DNA from: Lachnospiraceae bacterium
GTDB taxonomy: Bacteria; Bacillota; Clostridia; Lachnospirales; Lachnospiraceae
NCBI GenBank assembly: GCA_017455525.1
Contig: JAFTAP010000013.1
Location: forward strand, 1 to 34,028
DNA length: 34,028 nucleotides
Direction of reading: 5' to 3'
Shown here: positions 19,787-27,884 of the stretch, in pieces
How the letters are laid out: every line of letters starts with the position of its first letter
Position numbering within the stretch: position 1 is the first letter of the stretch
Program-made: the position numbers and the translations under genes
The notes under the pieces: generated by a model
Seen by the model: the letters and a program-made list of their open reading frames with translations, nothing else
What the model was told of the DNA's origin: nothing
Database searches by the model: none

Positions 19787-19815
19787 AACCTGACTGCAAA
19801 AAATGCAATCAGGTT
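19787..19815 (-). terminator. Candidate intrinsic terminator after the PHP gene
   Basis: Seven outer pairs, AACCTGA with TCAGGTT, continue through one wobble into TGCA/TGCA, giving a 12-pair stem with a five-T loop. A short T-rich run (TTGTGTTG) follows on the minus strand. On the plus strand the flanking ATTTTAT is also T-rich, so it could work both ways. It would end the transcript that carries the PHP gene. Confidence 0.45.
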
Positions 19816-19848
19816 ATTTTATAATACTTTTCACCTATTGTCTATGAC

Positions 19849-19965
19849 TTCTTAGACGAATTAATGACATCCCGTCTAAGAATCCGGCTATGCCAGACAC
19901 GCCGTCCGGCAAGCCGGCCGCCTGGTCAAATACGGATATTGATTTTTTGATTAAAATCAATATCC
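19849..19965 (-). repeat. Three-hairpin element after the PHP gene
   Basis: It comprises three stems. GGATATTGATTTT pairs perfectly with AAAATCAATATCC (19934-19946 with 19953-19965, loop of six). CCGGC pairs with GCCGG (19906-19917), inside a wider CCAG/CTGG closure. TTCTTAGACG pairs with CGTCTAAGAA (19849-19858 with 19873-19882). On the minus strand the linker CCGTATTTG joins the first two. The same linker and stem order recur after ftsY (26912-27015). It begins seven bases past the PHP stop codon. Confidence 0.75.
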
Positions 19966-19972
19966 TATGAAT

Positions 19973-20719
19973 TTAGGAGAATATAACACCTGTTTCTTCA
20001 AGAAAGCCGTCCATGCCCCGTATCCCCTCCGGCTGAATCACCTGAGTCGGCTTATGCGCATCGCAGCCGAAGATGAAGCTGCAGCCCTCACAGACAGCGA
20101 GCTTGAAGAAGTCCTCCCTCGGGTACCATCTGCCCGTCAGCATGCCAAGCCCGTTTATCTCAAGGGGCACTTCTTTATCACTTGTATACTCGCAGAGTCT
20201 TTTCATATGGCTTAGGTATATCTCATTGTCACCAATATAGTGAATAAGGTCAGGGTGAGCAAGATACATAAACTCCTTCGTCTCAAGTGCTTCTATCACT
20301 GCGTCAATATAAGCGTCAATGTCATACGTCCTGTCGGTCTTGCTCCCGGCATAAAAGCCCTCCTGCTCCTCAGGGACAAAATGCTGTCCAAGGATCAGGT
20401 AATCTATGTCCCTCTTCCTGACCTCTTTCATCAGCTTATCAAAACACGATGGATAATACTCGACCTCAAGCCCTATCCTGATATCTATCCTGTCTGCGTA
20501 CTCCTCCCGCAAGGCTTTAAGGGTGTCCACGTAGCCGTCAAGCTCTTCCATGTCCATCCTTATACCCGATACGAAGCCGTCATCAAAGGGCTGCGGCGTA
20601 TGGTCCGAAAAGCCAAGTGTCTTAAACCCATTGGCGATCGCAGCCTCTATGTATTCTCTCTCGCTTCCCTCTGCATGTTTGCACCTGGGGGTATGAGTGT
20701 GATAGTTCGCCTGTATCAT
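19973..20719 (-). CDS. PHP-domain histidinol-phosphatase family protein
   Basis: This is a 248-residue protein. The N-terminal metal cluster HTH (His7, His9), with Cys13 and His15 in HTHTPRCKHAEG, is followed by GFSDHTP, the pattern of the HisJ/HisK PHP phosphatases. More His and Asp ligands appear at LAHPDL and FGCDAHKP. The family hydrolyses L-histidinol phosphate in histidine synthesis. No his genes are nearby and related PHP proteins act on other phosphates, so the substrate is open. It starts three bases after the C_GCAxxG_C_C gene and is followed by the three-hairpin element. Confidence 0.87.
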   Translation of the reverse strand: MIQANYHTHTPRCKHAEGSEREYIEAAIANGFKTLGFSDHTPQPFDDGFVSGIRMDMEELDGYVDTLKALREEYADRIDIRIGLEVEYYPSCFDKLMKEVRKRDIDYLILGQHFVPEEQEGFYAGSKTDRTYDIDAYIDAVIEALETKEFMYLAHPDLIHYIGDNEIYLSHMKRLCEYTSDKEVPLEINGLGMLTGRWYPREDFFKLAVCEGCSFIFGCDAHKPTQVIQPEGIRGMDGFLEETGVIFS

Positions 20720-20722
20720 CGT

Positions 20723-21130
20723 CTAGGAAATCTTTCCTCTCTCTCTTAGTATCTCCTCCACGATGGCTACGCTGTCATAGACCATCTCGTCGCAATGCGG
20801 CTTCTTCGGAAGCCCCTTCTCATGGTTTATGCGAAGCAGGTCCTTACAATCAAGATAGCCCTCATGCTTTTCCTTGATGCGGTTGGCAAAATCAACGACC
20901 ACCTTCGGATCGTCCACACCAAAAAGCCCAAGCGTCATCAGCCCGCCCGTAAAGGAGCCACAGACAGAAGCTATCCTCATGCCGCTTCCAAAATTCGCTC
21001 CCATCCTCATCGCTGTCTCCTCATCTATGCCTGCTTCCTCAGCAAACGGCACTATGACCGACTGTGCGCAGTTATAATGTGGCTCCGTGATAGCCCTGAT
21101 CTCCTTCGCCTTGTCAAGATATTTGCTCAT
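20723..21130 (-). CDS. C_GCAxxG_C_C family protein
   Basis: This is a 135-residue protein. The four family cysteines are present: Cys21 in HYNCAQSV, Cys57 in ASVCGSFTGG, Cys95 in GYLDCKDLL and Cys113 in KPHCDEMV. Family members are thought to be redox-active, but the reaction is unknown. I chose the ATG at 21130 because GGAGAAAGGAAGG precedes it. Longer readings to 21238 run through a stem-loop and give no family similarity. It is probably co-transcribed with the PHP gene, three bases downstream. Confidence 0.88.
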   Translation of the reverse strand: MSKYLDKAKEIRAITEPHYNCAQSVIVPFAEEAGIDEETAMRMGANFGSGMRIASVCGSFTGGLMTLGLFGVDDPKVVVDFANRIKEKHEGYLDCKDLLRINHEKGLPKKPHCDEMVYDSVAIVEEILRERGKIS

Positions 21131-21189
21131 ATTCCTTCCTTTCTCCTCTAATAACGCTAGTTTATTATCTGACTTACACCGTTCGGGGC

Positions 21190-21230
21190 TGATACCGTAA
21201 CCGCCCAAAACACGGGCGCTAACGGTATCA
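21190..21230 (-). promoter_or_regulatory. Strong stem-loop between the SGNH hydrolase and the C_GCAxxG_C_C gene
   Basis: TGATACCGT pairs with ACGGTATCA (nine pairs), then a small internal loop, then CGCCC with GGGCG (five pairs), and a seven-base loop. No T-run follows on the minus strand, so it is not a classic terminator. It lies about 60 bases before the ATG at 21130 and could act in the leader of that gene or protect the 3' end of the previous message. Confidence 0.55.
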
Positions 21231-21249
21231 TGCTCCATAAAATAATAAT

Positions 21250-22002
21250 TCAGTACAACAGATTATCACTAACTAAGTCTAATGGATCATAAACTTCTAT
21301 AGGTAAGATATATCCCTGTAATATTTTCTCATAAATAATTTTTCCAACCTGCCTGTTTCCCGCATCGTTCGGGTGGATATCATCGGCAAAATACTCAGGC
21401 GTACTTAGCAGGCTTAAATCCATATTATAAAAATCAACTACAGTGAAGCCATATACATTAGCCTTGTCAGCCTGATACTGCATGAACTGCGCTAAGCTTG
21501 CGCCCCTGTCGGTTCTAAGAGCTTCAGATCTGTTCTTAAATGTCGTGACCACCACGATCTTTGTATTCGGGAAATAATTCTTCATATAGGCAAACGCATA
21601 GTCAACATCATCCTTATACCGCTCATAGTTCATAGGCGTGCCCCATATGAAATCATCAACCCCCGCCCAAAAAACAATCACATCGGTATTTTGAGGGATA
21701 TTATAAAGCCTTTGCATTATGCAGTTATTTATTCCGTAATCACCGATCTGCACCCCTTCAAAGCTGGAATTATAAACCGCTGCCCCCGAGTACTCACCTA
21801 TATAATCCGTATAACTTATATAGTGTCCGTTTATGTCCTTATTGCCGCCTATCGCCAGCGTTATGGAATCACCGACGCAATATATAGTCCGTCCCAGCAA
21901 AGGCTTAGCCTCAATCTCGCCTGCATATGCACTTTCAGCATTTAAAAGCACCGTTATGGTTATAAGGCAAATACTTAATAATACCGCCGATATTCTTTTC
22001 AT
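21250..22002 (-). CDS. Exported SGNH/GDSL-type hydrolase
   Basis: This is a 250-residue protein. A signal peptide is clear at 1-27, ending AESAYA before GEIEAK. The nucleophile block GDSIT gives Ser46 and the C-terminal block DDIHPND gives Asp207 and His210, as in SGNH esterases. The third block reads GVDD (114-117) instead of the usual GxND, so the oxyanion-hole Asn is replaced by Asp. The family removes acyl groups from lipids or glycans; the substrate is unknown. The start at 22002 has AGGAT upstream and matches the signal peptide, so I preferred it to the ATG at 22044. Three 23-bp repeats lie just upstream. Confidence 0.85.
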   Translation of the reverse strand: MKRISAVLLSICLITITVLLNAESAYAGEIEAKPLLGRTIYCVGDSITLAIGGNKDINGHYISYTDYIGEYSGAAVYNSSFEGVQIGDYGINNCIMQRLYNIPQNTDVIVFWAGVDDFIWGTPMNYERYKDDVDYAFAYMKNYFPNTKIVVVTTFKNRSEALRTDRGASLAQFMQYQADKANVYGFTVVDFYNMDLSLLSTPEYFADDIHPNDAGNRQVGKIIYEKILQGYILPIEVYDPLDLVSDNLLY

Positions 22003-22024
22003 GATCAATCCTGTCTCAATGCCA

Positions 22025-22093
22025 ATTCGGTAAAATGTCAACATTCCATTCGGTAATTTGGCGTTTTTTCATTCGGTAATTTGGCAATATATC
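22025..22093. repeat. Three tandem 23-bp direct repeats
   Basis: Three units begin ATTCGGTAA at 22025, 22048 and 22071, spaced exactly 23 bases. Units 2 and 3 agree over ATTCGGTAATTTGGC (15 bases), while unit 1 keeps the first nine bases. The array fills almost the whole gap between the lipoprotein stop (22092-22094) and the hydrolase start. The two-helical-turn spacing is what an operator array or an iteron set would show. Confidence 0.8.
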
Positions 22094-23240
22094 AGTCGTT
22101 GCTCGTATAGTGCGTCTTTACCGGCTCATTGCCGTCTTGTTGATCCGCATTTCCTTCGTTTACAGGTGCATTTTCATTCGGCATGCCCTGTAGTGTGGAC
22201 ACCGAAGCCGTCATAGCATTATTCTTCGCCTGTGCCTTCATAGCCTTCTTCTCCGCACGGCTTGGCTTTGATTTTTTCTCCTTGCCCGACTTCCCTATTA
22301 TAGCCTTTATTATCTTAACTATGATGAATACGACAAGCGCAAGTATCGCAAAGAGCGGAAGCCTCGTGATCAGCCATATAAGAAGGTCTATAGCAGTCTC
22401 CAGCCCGTCCTCCATCTCGCTTGTGAAATTCTCTCCCACCTTCGACCAGAAGGACTTCTCTCCCTTATGCCCTGCAAGCGTCCTCGTCTCCTTGGCATTC
22501 ACATTCACTGTGCTGTAGGATACCTTATTCTGCATGGATTTCAGCTGGCGGTTAAGGCTGTCAAGCTCATAATTCACGTCTGCTATCTTATCACGGATAG
22601 TAATGATATCCTTTAGTGTATTCGCCTTATCAAGAAGCTCCATGAGGCTGTCCCGCTCCGCTTCATAGGTGGCTATGCGAGCCTCGACATCCACATACTG
22701 TAATGTCACGTCCTCCGCAGACTCGCTCTTTTGCGTGACTGTCCCCTCGTCCTTTACGATATTAAGGAAATCATCAAGCTTCGCCGCCGGGATGCGTACC
22801 GTGAAATACCCGTACCTGGACTCGGAATATTCCGAATCATAGGAATTCACGTCCATGCTCTCCATGTATCCGCCGTAGTCGGTGACGGTCTTCTTCAGAT
22901 TGTCAGCGAACTCCTCAAGGTTTCCTACATCAAGAGATAAGCTCGCATTCCTGATTATCTTGGAACCGTACTCCTCCACATCTTCATTGCTTATCTCCTT
23001 GGTCGCTCCCTCTTCGTACTCTACGTCATCCTCGATAGCCGCTTCCTCCCGAGCGTAATCTTCGGAATCATAACCAGAGCTGAACTCACTCGTCTCATAG
23101 GCATTGTCCTCATAGCTGTAGTATGACTCCTCCGCAGCAGCCGCTGTCTCATAAGCCCCGCTGTCAGCACTTGCCGAGCTTCCGCAGCCTGTGAGCGCAA
23201 TTCCCAGACACAGGCAAACAATAAATAACCTCTTCTTCAT
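22092..23240 (-). CDS. DUF4349 lipoprotein
   Basis: This protein has about 382 residues. A lipoprotein signal ends in LTGC with Cys19. An acidic, Tyr/Ser/Glu-rich stretch (about 20-95) leads into the DUF4349 domain (about 95-265, containing IIRNASLSLDVGNL and YFTVRIPAAKLDDFL). A helical hairpin, one membrane segment (about 290-315) and a basic cytoplasmic tail follow. It should be anchored at both ends, by lipid and by membrane helix. Its function is unknown. GGGAGG seven bases before the ATG at 23240 sets the start over that at 23270. Confidence 0.88.
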   Translation of the reverse strand: MKKRLFIVCLCLGIALTGCGSSASADSGAYETAAAAEESYYSYEDNAYETSEFSSGYDSEDYAREEAAIEDDVEYEEGATKEISNEDVEEYGSKIIRNASLSLDVGNLEEFADNLKKTVTDYGGYMESMDVNSYDSEYSESRYGYFTVRIPAAKLDDFLNIVKDEGTVTQKSESAEDVTLQYVDVEARIATYEAERDSLMELLDKANTLKDIITIRDKIADVNYELDSLNRQLKSMQNKVSYSTVNVNAKETRTLAGHKGEKSFWSKVGENFTSEMEDGLETAIDLLIWLITRLPLFAILALVVFIIVKIIKAIIGKSGKEKKSKPSRAEKKAMKAQAKNNAMTASVSTLQGMPNENAPVNEGNADQQDGNEPVKTHYTSND

Positions 23241-23334
23241 AATCAGCCTCCCTTCAAAAAGCATAACCACAAATCCGCACTGAAGCCATGCAGCAGACGC
23301 CTGTCCCAGCGTCCGGATAAAGCAAAACGCCTGC

Positions 23335-24261
23335 CTAATTCATGAAATCCGCAATAAGCATCGTTATCGTAACGACCGCCGCAATCGCTATTCCTATTAT
23401 CAGCGGGATCGAGAATAAATGTCCGTATCTTTCCGCCTTACTCTTCTGCCTGAATATATTCTCAAAACAGCCGGTACGCCCCTCGTTAAGCGATATCACC
23501 CGAAGCATCAGCATTGCAAGCATGGTCGTGAATATGGAAATAATAAGAAAAGTAAAGCCCGTAGCAGCATAGGATAAGGCAGCACCCGCGCCGCCCGCTT
23601 CGATAATCTCTTCAAGTCCCCCTATGCTGTCCTCTAAAAGATAAGCCAGTATCACGCTCACGCTGTTCATGGTTATATGGCATATCATCGAAGGTATGAT
23701 GCTTCCCGTCGCCTCGGCAAGAAGCCCCCAGAATATCCCCATGCATAAAGTATACGAGAATTGATTTACATTCATATGAATAAGCCCGAAAAGTAGGGCG
23801 GAAAGCAGTATCGGAGTGAAAATCCTTCCCGTAGTCCTAAGACCGCCAAGGATTGCTCCCCTGAATATAAGCTCCTCGACGACAGGCCCTACAAGCCCTA
23901 CGAAAAGCCATATCAGAAAGAACGGCTCTCCCTGAAACTGTGCCGTAAGGTCAAGCGCCTCATTATCCGATATTGCCATAGTGAAAGAATTCATCGCTAT
24001 GACAAGGGGGTAGCAGCATATATGATATACAAGGACTAAAAGCACGGTCGCAGGTTTTATTCCCCGAAACTTAAGCTGCACAGGTATCTGTGCCCTGCCC
24101 CTTATCAGACAGCATAAAACAGGGATCAACAGGCAAAGTTCGCTAAGCAGCGCCGTGATGCTTATTCCCATATATGGGCTAAAATAACTTACGAAAAGCG
24201 AAGCAATAACAAAAGTCGCCGTCATCCATAGATATGCCCATCCAACTCTCTTTGTGTTCAT
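23335..24261 (-). CDS. CPBP-family intramembrane metalloprotease
   Basis: This 308-residue protein has about eight membrane segments. It contains the CPBP/Abi motif set: Glu129-Glu130 and Arg134 in VEELIFRGAI, His162 in LIHMNVNQ and His195 in MICHITMNS. These match the Rce1-like glutamate/histidine site. Relatives process prenylated or peptide substrates, or act in bacteriocin immunity. The target here is unknown, and I see no bacteriocin gene beside it. Confidence 0.9.
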   Translation of the reverse strand: MNTKRVGWAYLWMTATFVIASLFVSYFSPYMGISITALLSELCLLIPVLCCLIRGRAQIPVQLKFRGIKPATVLLVLVYHICCYPLVIAMNSFTMAISDNEALDLTAQFQGEPFFLIWLFVGLVGPVVEELIFRGAILGGLRTTGRIFTPILLSALLFGLIHMNVNQFSYTLCMGIFWGLLAEATGSIIPSMICHITMNSVSVILAYLLEDSIGGLEEIIEAGGAGAALSYAATGFTFLIISIFTTMLAMLMLRVISLNEGRTGCFENIFRQKSKAERYGHLFSIPLIIGIAIAAVVTITMLIADFMN

Positions 24262-24302
24262 CTTAACGCACTACCCTCTTACGAATAAATATATCCAAAC
24301 CA

Positions 24303-25637
24303 CTATACCTTAATCATTTCCCCTTTATCAAGTGCTTCTCTTATCTCAGGAAGCATAGCTGTGGTGCCAAGCACGACCGCAGGATATCCGTAATCCTTTG
24401 CAGCCCTCATCGCATCGATGAGACTGTCCTTATATTCGCAGGATATCCCTGCTTTAAGCAGCTCCTTCATCTGTATCCCGTCGAACCGATAGTGTTTGTT
24501 TTTCACCTTAGTCAAAATTATACCATATCCTTTGGAAGATACAGCCTCAGCCACTCCCATGTAGTCCTTATCGTCGGGAATAGCCAGAATAAATACCGCC
24601 CTGCTTCCGGCAAGCTCTTCTATGGCTTCCATTGCTCCGTCTGCGCTCGCCCTGTTAATGCAGCAGTCAACCAGCATAAGCGGCTCCCGCTTTATGACAG
24701 AAAGCCTTCCGAACCACTCAAGACTTAAAAGCGCTTCCCTGATGCGTCTCTCACTTTCATCGCTGTCACAGAAACTATCCCCTATGATATCCTCAGCGGC
24801 TGCCATTGCAAGCGCAAGATTCCTGCACTGATTCGTCCCTATAAGAGATATGCAAAGCTCCTCATACCTACGCCTCTTAGTCGTAACAGTGCATGACATT
24901 CCGCCATCCGTAAAGTTAATATTGCTTACATCAAAATCCCTGCCTGCAAGATATAATGGCACATCATGCTCTTTCGCCCTGCGGGATATGACAGATGATA
25001 CGCCATACTGCTGCCAGCCCACAAATATTCCCTTCATTCCGGCTCTTATGATATGCGCCTTATCCCCGGCTATCGCTTCTATCGTCCCGCCAAGCTCTCT
25101 CGTGTGCTCAAGGAATACGGAATTAATAATGCCGTATGAAGCCGGTATATTATTCACATCATCATATTGCACGCCCTTTCCATGCTCATATATATCGAAT
25201 TCAGTTTCATGTCTGGAAAAATAAGATTCCGCTATCGCCGTCTCTATTCCGATAGGACTTACGAATTCTCCCTTAGCAGGATTTAGTTTTATATCGTTAA
25301 ATAAGGGCTTGATCCCGGATACGATATCTATTAGCTCGTCATCGGTTATAAGCTCCTCTCCGATCCTGAATCGTTCGTTAAAGCTTGATATATGCGGTCC
25401 CGTCATTAGGCCTGTCCTGCCGTATGTCCCAAGTATCGCAGCTAAAATATAAGCTGCGGAGCCTTTCCCCTTGCTCCCTGTAACGGCTATCGAGGGTGTA
25501 CCCGCATAGAGCTTTTTTATTATAGCTTCGGTATATTCAGGATGCCGCTTTCCGCTGTCAGGCAGGTCATACGAAAGATAGGGCAGCGCCTTCATGTATG
25601 AGGAATAAATATAATCCTCCGCCTCTTTTCTGTTCAT
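24303..25637 (-). CDS. FolC-like Mur ligase family protein
   Basis: This 444-residue ligase has an ATP loop GSKGKGS (54-60) in VTGSKGKGSAAY, and the FolC-type sequence GPHISSFNERFRIG (80-93). A GDKAHIIR block and a C-terminal domain follow. It resembles folylpolyglutamate/dihydrofolate synthase. However, the FolC EVGLGGRLDATN block reads EHGKGVQYDDVN (about 150-161), and the loop reads GSKGKGS rather than GTNGKGS. It may therefore be a paralogue with another substrate. It lies between ilvA and a membrane protease, with no folate gene near. Confidence 0.8.
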   Translation of the reverse strand: MNRKEAEDYIYSSYMKALPYLSYDLPDSGKRHPEYTEAIIKKLYAGTPSIAVTGSKGKGSAAYILAAILGTYGRTGLMTGPHISSFNERFRIGEELITDDELIDIVSGIKPLFNDIKLNPAKGEFVSPIGIETAIAESYFSRHETEFDIYEHGKGVQYDDVNNIPASYGIINSVFLEHTRELGGTIEAIAGDKAHIIRAGMKGIFVGWQQYGVSSVISRRAKEHDVPLYLAGRDFDVSNINFTDGGMSCTVTTKRRRYEELCISLIGTNQCRNLALAMAAAEDIIGDSFCDSDESERRIREALLSLEWFGRLSVIKREPLMLVDCCINRASADGAMEAIEELAGSRAVFILAIPDDKDYMGVAEAVSSKGYGIILTKVKNKHYRFDGIQMKELLKAGISCEYKDSLIDAMRAAKDYGYPAVVLGTTAMLPEIREALDKGEMIKV

Positions 25638-25657
25638 AAGATCTGCTGATTCATCCC

Positions 25658-26872
25658 TTAAAGCGTCGTTCGCACTATCTTGGGTTTATAGCCCTCTTTT
25701 TCAAGCACCGTAAGTATCTTGTCCTTATGCTCCGTGCCGAAGGCCTCAAGAGTGATCCGAAGCTCCACTGCCGCGTTCCTGTTCGTTGATACGAACTGAT
25801 TATGCTCAAGCTTTATGACGTTTCCATTCTCTCCTGCTATCACGCCCGCAACCTTCTGAAGCTCACCGGGCTTATCGGGAAGCAGCACGGAAACCGTGAA
25901 TATCCTGTCTCTTAAAATAAGCCCCTGCTGGACGACGGACGACATCGTTATGACATCCATATTCCCGCCTGATATGACACAGACTATCTTCTTATTCTCG
26001 CAGTCAAGCTGCTTCAGAGCCGCAACCGTAAGCAGTCCGGAGTTCTCGGCTATCATCTTGTGATTCTCGACCATATCAAGGAAAGCCGCGACCAGATCCT
26101 CATCGGGGACCGTCAGCACCTTGTCTATATTCTTCTGCAGATAAGGAAATATCTTCGCTCCCGGTGTCTTGACGGCAGTACCGTCCGCTATCGTAGATAC
26201 CTGCGGTAAGGTCAAGACCTCACCTGCGTCTAATGACGCCTTAAGGCATGCCGCCCCCTCTGGCTCCACGGCAACTATCTCTGTATTAGGATGCAGAAGC
26301 TTCGTAAAGGTAGACACCCCCGTGGCAAGCCCGCCTCCGCCTACAGGGACAAGTATCATGTCCGTAAGAGGCTGCTCCTTGAATATCTCCCACGCTATCG
26401 AGCCCTGTCCCGTAGCTACATCCTCATCATCAAAGGGATGCACGAAGGTATAGCCCTCGCTTTTTGCAAGCTCATAAGCCTTATCACATGCCTCATCGTA
26501 GATATCACCGTATAGCACGACCTCCGCACCAAGCGCCTTGGTTCGGTTCACCTTTATAAGAGGAGTCGTAGTCGGCATCACTATGACCGCCTTAACTCCA
26601 TACTCCTTTGCGGCATAGGCTACGCCCTGCGCATGATTTCCCGCAGACGCAGTTATTACGCCCTTTGCCTTCTCATCCTCTGAGAGCCTGCTGATCTTAT
26701 AATAAGCTCCCCTTATCTTATAGGCTCCCGTGCGCTGCATATTCTCAGGCTTTAGGAAGACCTTGTTTCCCTTTCCAGCGATGGCAGAGAAATAATCGCT
26801 GTATATCAGCTTCGTATCAAGAGTTACTTCCTTTACTTTTTCAGCGGCTTCCTCAAATGACCTTAGATCCAT
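25658..26872 (-). CDS. ilvA: Threonine ammonia-lyase
   Basis: This protein has about 404 residues. The PLP lysine is Lys52 in RTGAYKIRGAYY, the substrate-binding SAGNHAQG follows at about 76-83, and the phosphate loop VGGGGLATG comes later. A single ACT domain (about 325-404, from VSVLLPDKPGEL) suggests amino-acid feedback control. The reaction is threonine to 2-oxobutyrate and ammonia, the first step to isoleucine. Its size and single ACT domain fit the short biosynthetic or catabolic form. The start at 26872 has AAAGGTG six bases upstream; the GTG at 26881 is embedded in that site. Confidence 0.93.
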   Translation of the reverse strand: MDLRSFEEAAEKVKEVTLDTKLIYSDYFSAIAGKGNKVFLKPENMQRTGAYKIRGAYYKISRLSEDEKAKGVITASAGNHAQGVAYAAKEYGVKAVIVMPTTTPLIKVNRTKALGAEVVLYGDIYDEACDKAYELAKSEGYTFVHPFDDEDVATGQGSIAWEIFKEQPLTDMILVPVGGGGLATGVSTFTKLLHPNTEIVAVEPEGAACLKASLDAGEVLTLPQVSTIADGTAVKTPGAKIFPYLQKNIDKVLTVPDEDLVAAFLDMVENHKMIAENSGLLTVAALKQLDCENKKIVCVISGGNMDVITMSSVVQQGLILRDRIFTVSVLLPDKPGELQKVAGVIAGENGNVIKLEHNQFVSTNRNAAVELRITLEAFGTEHKDKILTVLEKEGYKPKIVRTTL

Positions 26873-26911
26873 AATAATCACCTTTTTCTACTGTATTACG
26901 CCACATTACCT

Positions 26912-27015
26912 GGTTGATAGACATGCCAAGGAAGCATGTCTATCAATCCTACGGACAGGATTCTTACGAATCCTGCCAAATACGGTTTAGAAATTGCCGA
27001 TGCAATTTCTAAACC
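26912..27015 (-). repeat. Three-hairpin element after ftsY
   Basis: It comprises three stems. GGTTTAGAAATTGC pairs with GCAATTTCTAAACC (26984-26997 with 27002-27015, 14 pairs, loop CGAT). CAGGATTC pairs with GAATCCTG (26956-26975, loop TTAC). TTGATAGACATGC pairs with GCATGTCTATCAA (26914-26926 with 26934-26946, 13 pairs). The first stem abuts the ftsY stop codon. The CCGTATTTG linker, the stem order and the third-stem pattern match the element at 19849-19965. It fills most of the gap before ilvA. Confidence 0.8.
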
Positions 27016-27884
27016 TACTCCAACACTCCCGCCATGAATTTCTCTGTGTCGAACCGTCTTAAGTCGCTCACTCCCTCGCCAAGCCCCACGAACTTCACAG
27101 GTATCTTAAGCTCATTCTCTATTGCTATGACGATACCGCCCTTAGCCGAACCGTCAAGCTTAGTTAAGACGACTCCGGACACATCCGTGACCTCTGCAAA
27201 TTCCTTTGCCTGCTCCTTCGCATTCTGCCCTGTAGAAGCGTCTACGACGCAGAGCGTCTCCTTTACGGCTTCGGGATATTCTGACTTTATTATCTGATTT
27301 ATCTTGGAAAGCTCGTTCATGAGATTTTTCTTATTATGAAGCCTGCCCGCCGTATCTACTATCAGCATGTCGTAATCCCTTGCCTTTACGGACTGTATTG
27401 CATCATATATCACAGAGCCGGGATCTCCACCCTCTCTGCCCTTTACTATATCGGCGCCGGTCTTCATAGCCCAGGAGGTCAGCTGCTCTATGGCCGCTGC
27501 ACGGAAGGTATCGGCAGCTACAAGCATGACCTTCCTCCCAAGCGACCTGTATCTTGCGGCAAGCTTGCCTGCAGAAGTAGTCTTTCCCACTCCGTTCACG
27601 CCTACGACAAGCACTACCGACTTCTTATCCTCGTAATCAAAATCATGCTCCGTGGATATGGCGTCAAGCTTCTCCTTCATTATGACGGTAAGGAGCTCCT
27701 TTGCCTTGTCAGTATCCCTTACCCGCTCCTGCCTTATCCTGTCCTTAAGTTCTTCGACTAATTCCTCCGCAGTCGTCATTCCTACGTCACCCATTATAAG
27801 GGTGTCCGTCAGGTCATCGTAAAACTCCTCGTCTATCTGCTCATATCCTACGAAGAAATCAGAAAGCTTACTGAAAAATCCCAT
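27015..27884 (-). CDS. ftsY: Signal recognition particle receptor FtsY
   Basis: This is a 289-residue protein with the SRP-GTPase motifs G1 GVNGVGKT (95-102), DTAGR (177-181), TKLD (241-244) and the closing GLGEGVSDLRRF. The acidic A domain found in E. coli FtsY is absent, as usual in Gram-positives, leaving the N and G domains. It docks SRP-bound ribosomes at the membrane. It follows smc, as in Bacillus and clostridia, but the usual next genes ylxM and ffh are missing here. Confidence 0.97.
   Translation of the reverse strand: MGFFSKLSDFFVGYEQIDEEFYDDLTDTLIMGDVGMTTAEELVEELKDRIRQERVRDTDKAKELLTVIMKEKLDAISTEHDFDYEDKKSVVLVVGVNGVGKTTSAGKLAARYRSLGRKVMLVAADTFRAAAIEQLTSWAMKTGADIVKGREGGDPGSVIYDAIQSVKARDYDMLIVDTAGRLHNKKNLMNELSKINQIIKSEYPEAVKETLCVVDASTGQNAKEQAKEFAEVTDVSGVVLTKLDGSAKGGIVIAIENELKIPVKFVGLGEGVSDLRRFDTEKFMAGVLE

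Follow-up and report, generated by a model that had tools for sequence, protein, structure and literature searches.

A family of four-hairpin repeats in Lachnospiraceae that probably spreads as a small non-autonomous mobile element

The DNA analysed here, which we call the window, is a stretch of 34,028 nucleotides from a Lachnospiraceae bacterium (contig JAFTAP010000013.1 of assembly GCA_017455525.1). Two structured elements lie on its minus strand, one beside a PHP gene and the other beside ftsY, where an earlier sequence-only reading had placed them. They share one architecture: a hairpin (H1), then an unpaired linker, then a closing helix (P2) that encloses three further hairpins, P3 to P5 (Table 1). 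The left end of the ftsY-side element forms the TAG stop codon of ftsY itself. Both window strands are more stable than their shuffled versions (z-scores of -7.15 and -11.60, with 0 of 200 shuffles reaching them in each case). We think it likely that the two elements belong to a family of small non-autonomous mobile elements of Lachnospiraceae, which spreads through recognition of its fold.

The sequence-only reading had described a three-hairpin architecture common to both places, with perfect long stems and with third stems in which two changes in one arm are matched at their two partner positions in the other. The third stems are indeed as described, and the long stems pair perfectly over 13 bp on the PHP side and 14 bp on the ftsY side. 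The shared architecture also holds, while the count of hairpins has to be corrected to four per element. In the PHP copy the GC-rich middle folds into two stems; at the same place in the ftsY copy the family alignment puts a UCC-GUA-GGA mini-stem.

Table 1. Positions of the two window elements and their parts, with the basis for each.
Feature	Positions	Strand	Basis
Type A element (PHP side), full model match, CATA flank to ATA flank	19843..19969	-	R1, 109.9 bits, E=5.1e-25 (this copy is 1 of the 15 used to build R1)
PHP copy, H1, AT-rich hairpin, 13 bp	19934..19965	-	sequence and fold
PHP copy, unpaired linker GTATT	19929..19933	-	CGTA here in 90/92 rows
PHP copy, P2 closing helix, 5' strand TGAC	19925..19928	-	family fold
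PHP copy, P3 hairpin CAGGC..GCGTG, G-G mismatch retained in most copies	19898..19924	-	family fold
PHP copy, P4 hairpin	19883..19897	-	family fold
PHP copy, P5 hairpin (the 'third stem' of the sequence-only reading)	19849..19882	-	sequence and family fold
PHP copy, P2 closing helix, 3' strand GTCA	19845..19848	-	family fold
PHP copy, right-hand ATA	19843..19845	-	single CATAGACAAT at the site in relatives L235, L236, L237
Type B element (ftsY side), full model match	26909..27019	-	R1 on L048 1472-1582, 44.5 bits
ftsY copy, H1, 14 bp, loop ATCG	26984..27015	-	sequence and fold
ftsY copy, unpaired linker GTATTT	26978..26983	-	sequence
ftsY copy, P2 5' strand GG	26976..26977	-	alignment A7; predicted by homology
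ftsY copy, P3 hairpin	26956..26975	-	fold and family alignment
ftsY copy, P4 mini-hairpin UCC-GUA-GGA, 3 bp	26947..26955	-	predicted from family alignment
ftsY copy, P5 hairpin, TTCC in loop	26914..26946	-	fold and family alignment
ftsY copy, P2 3' strand CC	26912..26913	-	predicted by homology

The string CCGTATTTG occurs in both window elements. As a family signal on its own it has to be rejected, with 27 places in the genome against 26 for a reversed control and thus no enrichment. The sequence around its matches nonetheless revealed a repeat family, and a longer core, TCCGTATTTGACCAGGC, was found at 23 places with up to 3 mismatches, against 4 for the reversed control. A covariance model, R1, was built from a MAFFT alignment of 15 full-length type A copies, all from the host genome and including the PHP-side copy of the window; its E-values are rough. 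In a direct search over 103 kb, R1 matched the ftsY copy, which is of type B and lies outside the training set, with 44.5 bits (E=1.6e-9). For a model built on PHP-type copies only, this match is more than chance. With 150 of 902 candidates scored, the R1 scan of the host genome listed 27 matches, of which two overlap a copy on its opposite strand; the ftsY copy and its sister on contig 28 were absent from this listing. The sequence-only reading had suggested that a structured element is dispersed here and conserved for its fold, possibly as a mobile hairpin repeat, and had proposed a genome-wide covariance-model search that might refute it. That search returned many more copies with paired stems, in line with both suggestions.

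The family unit is about 105-130 bp long. H1 usually has 14 bp and an ATCG or ATCA loop (78 of 92 aligned rows), the linker begins with CGTA in 90 of the 92, and in the consensus P2 (TGAC/GTCA in type A), P3, P4 and P5 meet in a fully paired four-way junction. The model-fitted alignment gives all three types (A, B and C) a common topology, in which P2 is GAC/GTC, GG/CC or CC/GG; P4 can be reduced to UCC-GUA-GGA, and TTCC is frequent in the P5 loop of this same alignment. For the two type B copies tested, minimum-energy folding of the single sequences favours a different pairing near P4 (-59.1 versus -50.6 and -48.2 versus -44.4 kcal/mol), therefore the P4 region of type B is drawn from homology. 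None of the 4227 curated Rfam families scored above its gathering score for the two window copies and four others, even at lenient thresholds. Beside a type A copy lies a match to RF03531 (n00280, a C. difficile small RNA family; locus L071, 1723-1820, minus strand), whose 43.6 bits are below the gathering score of 65.2. Two other type A copies (L152 1773-1946 and L153 1735-1916) host a second, nested hairpin family of about 45-54 nt, which reads AAGGGG, hairpin, GGATTCCTT.

The paired positions of the fold vary together. Across 82 distinct rows 96.9% of the cells pair and 31 of 38 pairs vary in both partners (score 0.554, against 0.200 when shuffled), and across 34 diverse rows the values are 96.8%, 35 of 38 and 0.697 against 0.200, both alignments being fitted to the structure and hence biased towards it. 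A structure-free MAFFT alignment of 15 rows gives 91.9% pairing, 21 of 38 pairs with two-sided changes and a score of 0.315 against 0.153 when shuffled, and every slid version of it scores lower. Its two-sided changes fall in H1, P4 and P5, with none in P2 or P3; covariation of P2 is seen only in the model-fitted alignments, across types and genera, and is absent from the 15 host rows. As this covariation is found among copies with arbitrary neighbours, we infer that the fold is retained since mobility needs it.

The case for mobile DNA is built on sites that are empty in relatives, on head-to-tail copies, on the presence of copies in both orientations and beside arbitrary neighbours, and on a dyad in the target. 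At the PHP site, where 12 loci were fetched and three relatives were read across the site, those three have a single uninterrupted CATAGACAAT, and the host reads CATA-element-ATAGACAAT, with one extra ATA. Twenty-nine other genomes of the genus were compared at ftsY, and R1 has a match in none of their 29 orthologous loci; the gap after ftsY is short in the nearest relatives, and longer or occupied by other repeats elsewhere. Nine head-to-tail pairs have model matches that share 4 nt, and type C and type A copies also stand head to head with TATA in common. Among the host-genus copies whose loci were fetched, which are part of the total, none had an orthologous placement in another fetched locus.

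Some other features were seen at these sites. In the interval from the PHP-side element to the next gene, window positions 19788-19822 hold a hairpin with a T run; it has counterparts in element-free relatives and looks like a native terminator. In three other genomes of the genus (L224, L225 and L226) the gap after ftsY is filled by dispersed repeats of the form GTCATTCTGAGC... / GATCCTTCGGGCTGACGCCCTCAGGATGACA and similar. In 6 of 8 loci of genome G232 (L280, L282, L286, L288, L290 and L291), a repeat of about 320-430 bp directly adjoins the right end of type C copies and, where its far end is visible, has inverted ends (ATTTCTGGAACACCCACT).

A target preference is seen in the host genus, in the 70 type A copies that are left when 16 that adjoin another element are taken from 86. 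Over about 20 bp their sites favour a palindrome centred on the AT of (C/T)AT(A/G), with a dyad profile correlation of 0.76, compared with 0.37 at the runner-up offset. In a second genus, g192, 71 copies again have an AT-centred dyad (0.81, runner-up 0.47). A target that itself forms a hairpin was considered and dropped, as the self-complementarity of individual targets (0.331) lies within the range for shuffled halves (mean 0.315, maximum 0.361). The left boundary of type A is mostly (C/T)ATAG beside a 32-nt hairpin, in a unit of about 122 nt; the ftsY copy reads GTAG. ATA stands both left and right in 51 of 86 copies, and most type A copies have AT at each of the two joints. The boundary letters are thus brought or duplicated by the element. 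Most type B and C copies of G232 end in GGCAT. A search for terminal inverted repeats in the 86 type A copies gave a mean best identity of 36.9%, versus 36.8% for shuffled ends. The idea of a guide, in which the linker's TAT would pair with the flanking ATA, was also abandoned, since g192 copies with the linker CGGA still have ATA flanks.

The most viable alternative is that the family is a cis-acting RNA of mRNA 3' regions (a stabiliser, processing site or attenuator) that is selected by the host gene, with mobility secondary, and we regard this as possible, though doubtful. Gene positions bear on it directly; they were counted with a simple caller of open reading frames (ORFs). Among 75 type A copies, 73 could be classified: 27 are sense and 20 antisense between co-directional genes, 16 divergent and 10 convergent, and 6 overlap an ORF of at least 100 aa. 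The 98 copies of g192 comprise 42 sense, 32 antisense, 14 divergent and 10 convergent ones, with 2 within an ORF, and when pooled the sense and antisense copies between co-directional genes, 69 versus 52, have no significant bias (p=0.15). The suggestion of the sequence-only reading that the element is a 3'-end stabiliser or processing site is therefore unsupported as a general rule, since PHP-type copies occur in every position relative to genes.

The role survives as a candidate for types B and C. Seven of 10 type B and C copies in the host genome adjoin the stop of a sense gene, compared with 19 of 77 for type A (p=0.007), and so do 12 of the 18 g192 copies without a GTC end, some of which are mutually orthologous. 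In the host genus, gene ends adjoin left ends in 19 of 77 and right ends in 4 of 77 (p=0.003). This bias can be explained without a regulatory function, because the left end carries TAG and can restore a stop, and the right end cannot. The GTC-type copies of g192 have no such excess (15 of 80 left, 14 of 80 right).

Some copies have persisted. An element after a gene that we take to be dnaK is common to four genomes (G764, G615, G645 and G766), and one after a presumed fba to three (G243, G778 and G770); both names were assigned from the encoded residues, and that of fba is consistent with a Pfam tally in which the members are unnamed. In G645 and G766 the post-dnaK copy is the only match. Between the more diverged species these copies have 3-4 compensated pairs and 0-2 broken ones, which favours the cis-acting RNA reading. 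Nearer pairs gave 0 compensated and 3 broken (L303/L327), one of each (L389/L325) or no pair changes (L367/L295), and two further shared places gave 0 and 1 (L296/L302) or no change (L319/L377). The uncompensated places L303/L327 and L296/L302, the element-free ftsY and PHP sites of relatives and the free orientation of type A all argue against selection by host genes as the general explanation. Placement and persistence do suggest that some copies may later come to serve in mRNA 3' regions.

A further alternative strikes us as quite unlikely: mobile single-strand DNA repeats like those of IS200/IS605 or REP/RAYT systems, for which a Y1 HUH transposase would read hairpin feet together with a guide. 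Several features of the family resemble such repeats. Its left boundary lies beside a hairpin, inverted repeats are absent, the TAG foot is like the GTAG of REPs (which the ftsY copy matches in full), most type A copies are bounded by ATA on both sides, and some copies stand head to tail. However, the palindromic target preference differs from single-strand guide targeting, and no Y1 transposase match was found in the host genome, which is 93% complete. Over 48 genomes a Y1 transposase is present in 9 of 24 carriers and 15 of 24 non-carriers (p=0.15, no enrichment), so that 15 carriers are without one, and R1 has a match in none of 30 Y1 loci. On these three counts a Y1 transposase is unsupported as the resident partner.

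Other candidate partners fared no better. IS110 was above its cut-off in 4 of 17 carriers (G032, G232, G243 and, marginally, G000) and in 7 of the 12 non-carriers tested. Of the 178 nearest ORFs, 144 were scanned; they matched 201 Pfam families, none of them in more than 3 proteins, which removes a recurrent neighbouring gene as partner among these 144 proteins. A gene-bearing version of the element was absent from the loci examined, whole genomes not having been scanned for one, and six partial or lone-H1 matches that were considered as ends of such a version seemed to be fragments or diverged copies.

Several observations weigh against mobility. No mobilising gene was found among the Y1, IS110 and neighbouring genes examined, serine recombinases and reverse transcriptases not having been searched for. 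No excision or new insertion was observed, and the relatives compared at the ftsY and PHP sites belong to other species (with about 65-85% DNA identity for those in the ftsY comparison), so loss in them is conceivable. A strict target duplication is unsupported, since only 2 of the 35 copies without ATA on both sides have identical triplets, and type B and C copies of the host genome are mostly without the right-hand AT.

The weakest alternative, also raised by the sequence-only reading, is that the arms stay matched only through quasi-palindrome (template-switch) correction in replication, without selection on the fold; we consider this very unlikely as the sole cause, because P3 retains a G-G mismatch in 68 of 92 rows and a bulged G in another 11 (79 together), letters of the loop and linker are conserved, and P2, with strands of 2-4 bp that lie about 80 nt apart, covaries across types though not within the 15 host rows. 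Such correction may contribute: when nearest copies that differ at 1-8 positions are compared, the host genus has 11 pairs altered in both partners yet still paired and 7 broken, although in g192 the counts are 7 and 14.

We propose the following scheme for a mobile element of this kind. Something would recognise the fold, i.e. H1, the linker that starts with CGTA and the four-way-junction module. A recombinase or transposase, dimeric and provided in trans, would bind AT-rich dyad sites and would recombine or cut at the central AT and join type A ends as ...GTC-AT-AG...; it is the dyad and the form of the joints that suggest action at the AT. As to the kind of enzyme we can only guess; because the ends are asymmetric, a serine-type or other site-specific recombinase would suit them better than a classical inverted-repeat transposase. 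For a serine recombinase the 2-bp crossover core expected at both joints would be AT, which most type A copies have there and the type B and C copies of the host genome mostly do not. Where an insertion strikes the end of a gene, the TAG of the left end would supply the stop codon. After insertion some copies would be retained, chiefly those with a GG/CC-type P2 at sense stops, probably as structures of mRNA 3' regions. In the post-dnaK and post-fba copies common to several genomes there is a hint of how an mRNA may acquire a mobile repeat.

A bolder variant, which we think rather unlikely, is that the family is a new class of element: a cloverleaf-like RNA or single-stranded DNA that is itself the substrate of some machinery, which integrates it at AT-centred dyads in double-stranded DNA. 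As a circle, such a molecule would have its H1 and P2 stacked into one closed fold. If true, this would be a bacterial counterpart of a short interspersed element (SINE) or a viroid-like hopper.

The family is found widely in two genera and rarely elsewhere. Of the 48 genomes of the host genus 24 have a match, several of them with fragments only, and the strict scan gave up to 28 per genome; in g192 it is 28 of 29 genomes, with 1 to 43 each. In a sample of 397 genomes from the family 3 have a match, and in one of 392 genomes from the order 14 do, all of them in the same family bar one weak match; 8 candidates were scored per genome in these two samples, and carriers may have been missed. Only two matches lie outside the family, both weak, one from the order sample and one from the scan that covered the host genus. 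In named genomes the model confirmed 11 of 18 pattern matches, all in metagenome-assembled genomes (MAGs) of uncultured Lachnospiraceae except one labelled Oscillospiraceae; the other 7, in other groups, were not confirmed. Collections of phages, plasmids and viruses held nothing that matches most of the element, and the lone pattern match on a viral contig was discarded when the model did not confirm it. Six pattern matches (L126, L129, L131, L132, L138 and L141) lie at the extreme ends of MAG contigs; copies at contig ends indicate that the repeat probably breaks short-read assemblies.

The family points to a mobilising enzyme in gut and rumen Lachnospiraceae, and it could be used as a marker for strain typing. 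No description of it was found in open-licence papers, as far as their titles and the starts of their abstracts reveal. Dispersed repeats are common in bacteria, and several known systems invite comparison. HEARO and omega-RNA elements carry a structured RNA within a mobile element and have gene-less copies, in which they are like our family; here the copies examined have no Rfam match, and no neighbouring gene recurs among the proteins scanned. An IS110/bridge RNA system would go with a DEDD recombinase in the carriers, which was not the pattern here. The REP/RAYT (TnpA-REP) system has palindromic repeats, a TAG-containing foot beside a hairpin and arrays in common with the family. REPs are 20-40 bp long (PMC3733652) and go together with a Y1 transposase (PMC8266576). 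Type A copies, in contrast, mostly have (C/T)ATAG instead of a GTAG (or CGTC) tag joined to a 20-40 nt palindrome, and a Y1 transposase has neither a match in the host genome nor an association with carriers. The bcr1-bcr18 repeats of the Bacillus cereus group are intergenic, some of them similar to miniature inverted-repeat transposable elements (MITEs) and some with both a conserved secondary structure and transcription in untranslated regions (PMC3446304); by description rather than direct sequence comparison both are intergenic structured repeats, in different taxa. The 86 type A copies are without the terminal inverted repeats of a MITE. A further likeness in description is to the short non-coding mobile repeats of the review PMC10969869, which it presents as dispersed, aimed at AT-rich intergenic targets and with a stable predicted transcript fold. 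Our family is alike in all of these respects, and differs from that account in its asymmetric ends without terminal inverted repeats, in the lack of any parent insertion sequence found, and in a four-way-junction fold that is conserved by covariation across genera. What sets the family apart is this unusual combination of a body of about 122 nt with a compensated four-way junction, no inverted repeats and a palindromic, AT-centred target.

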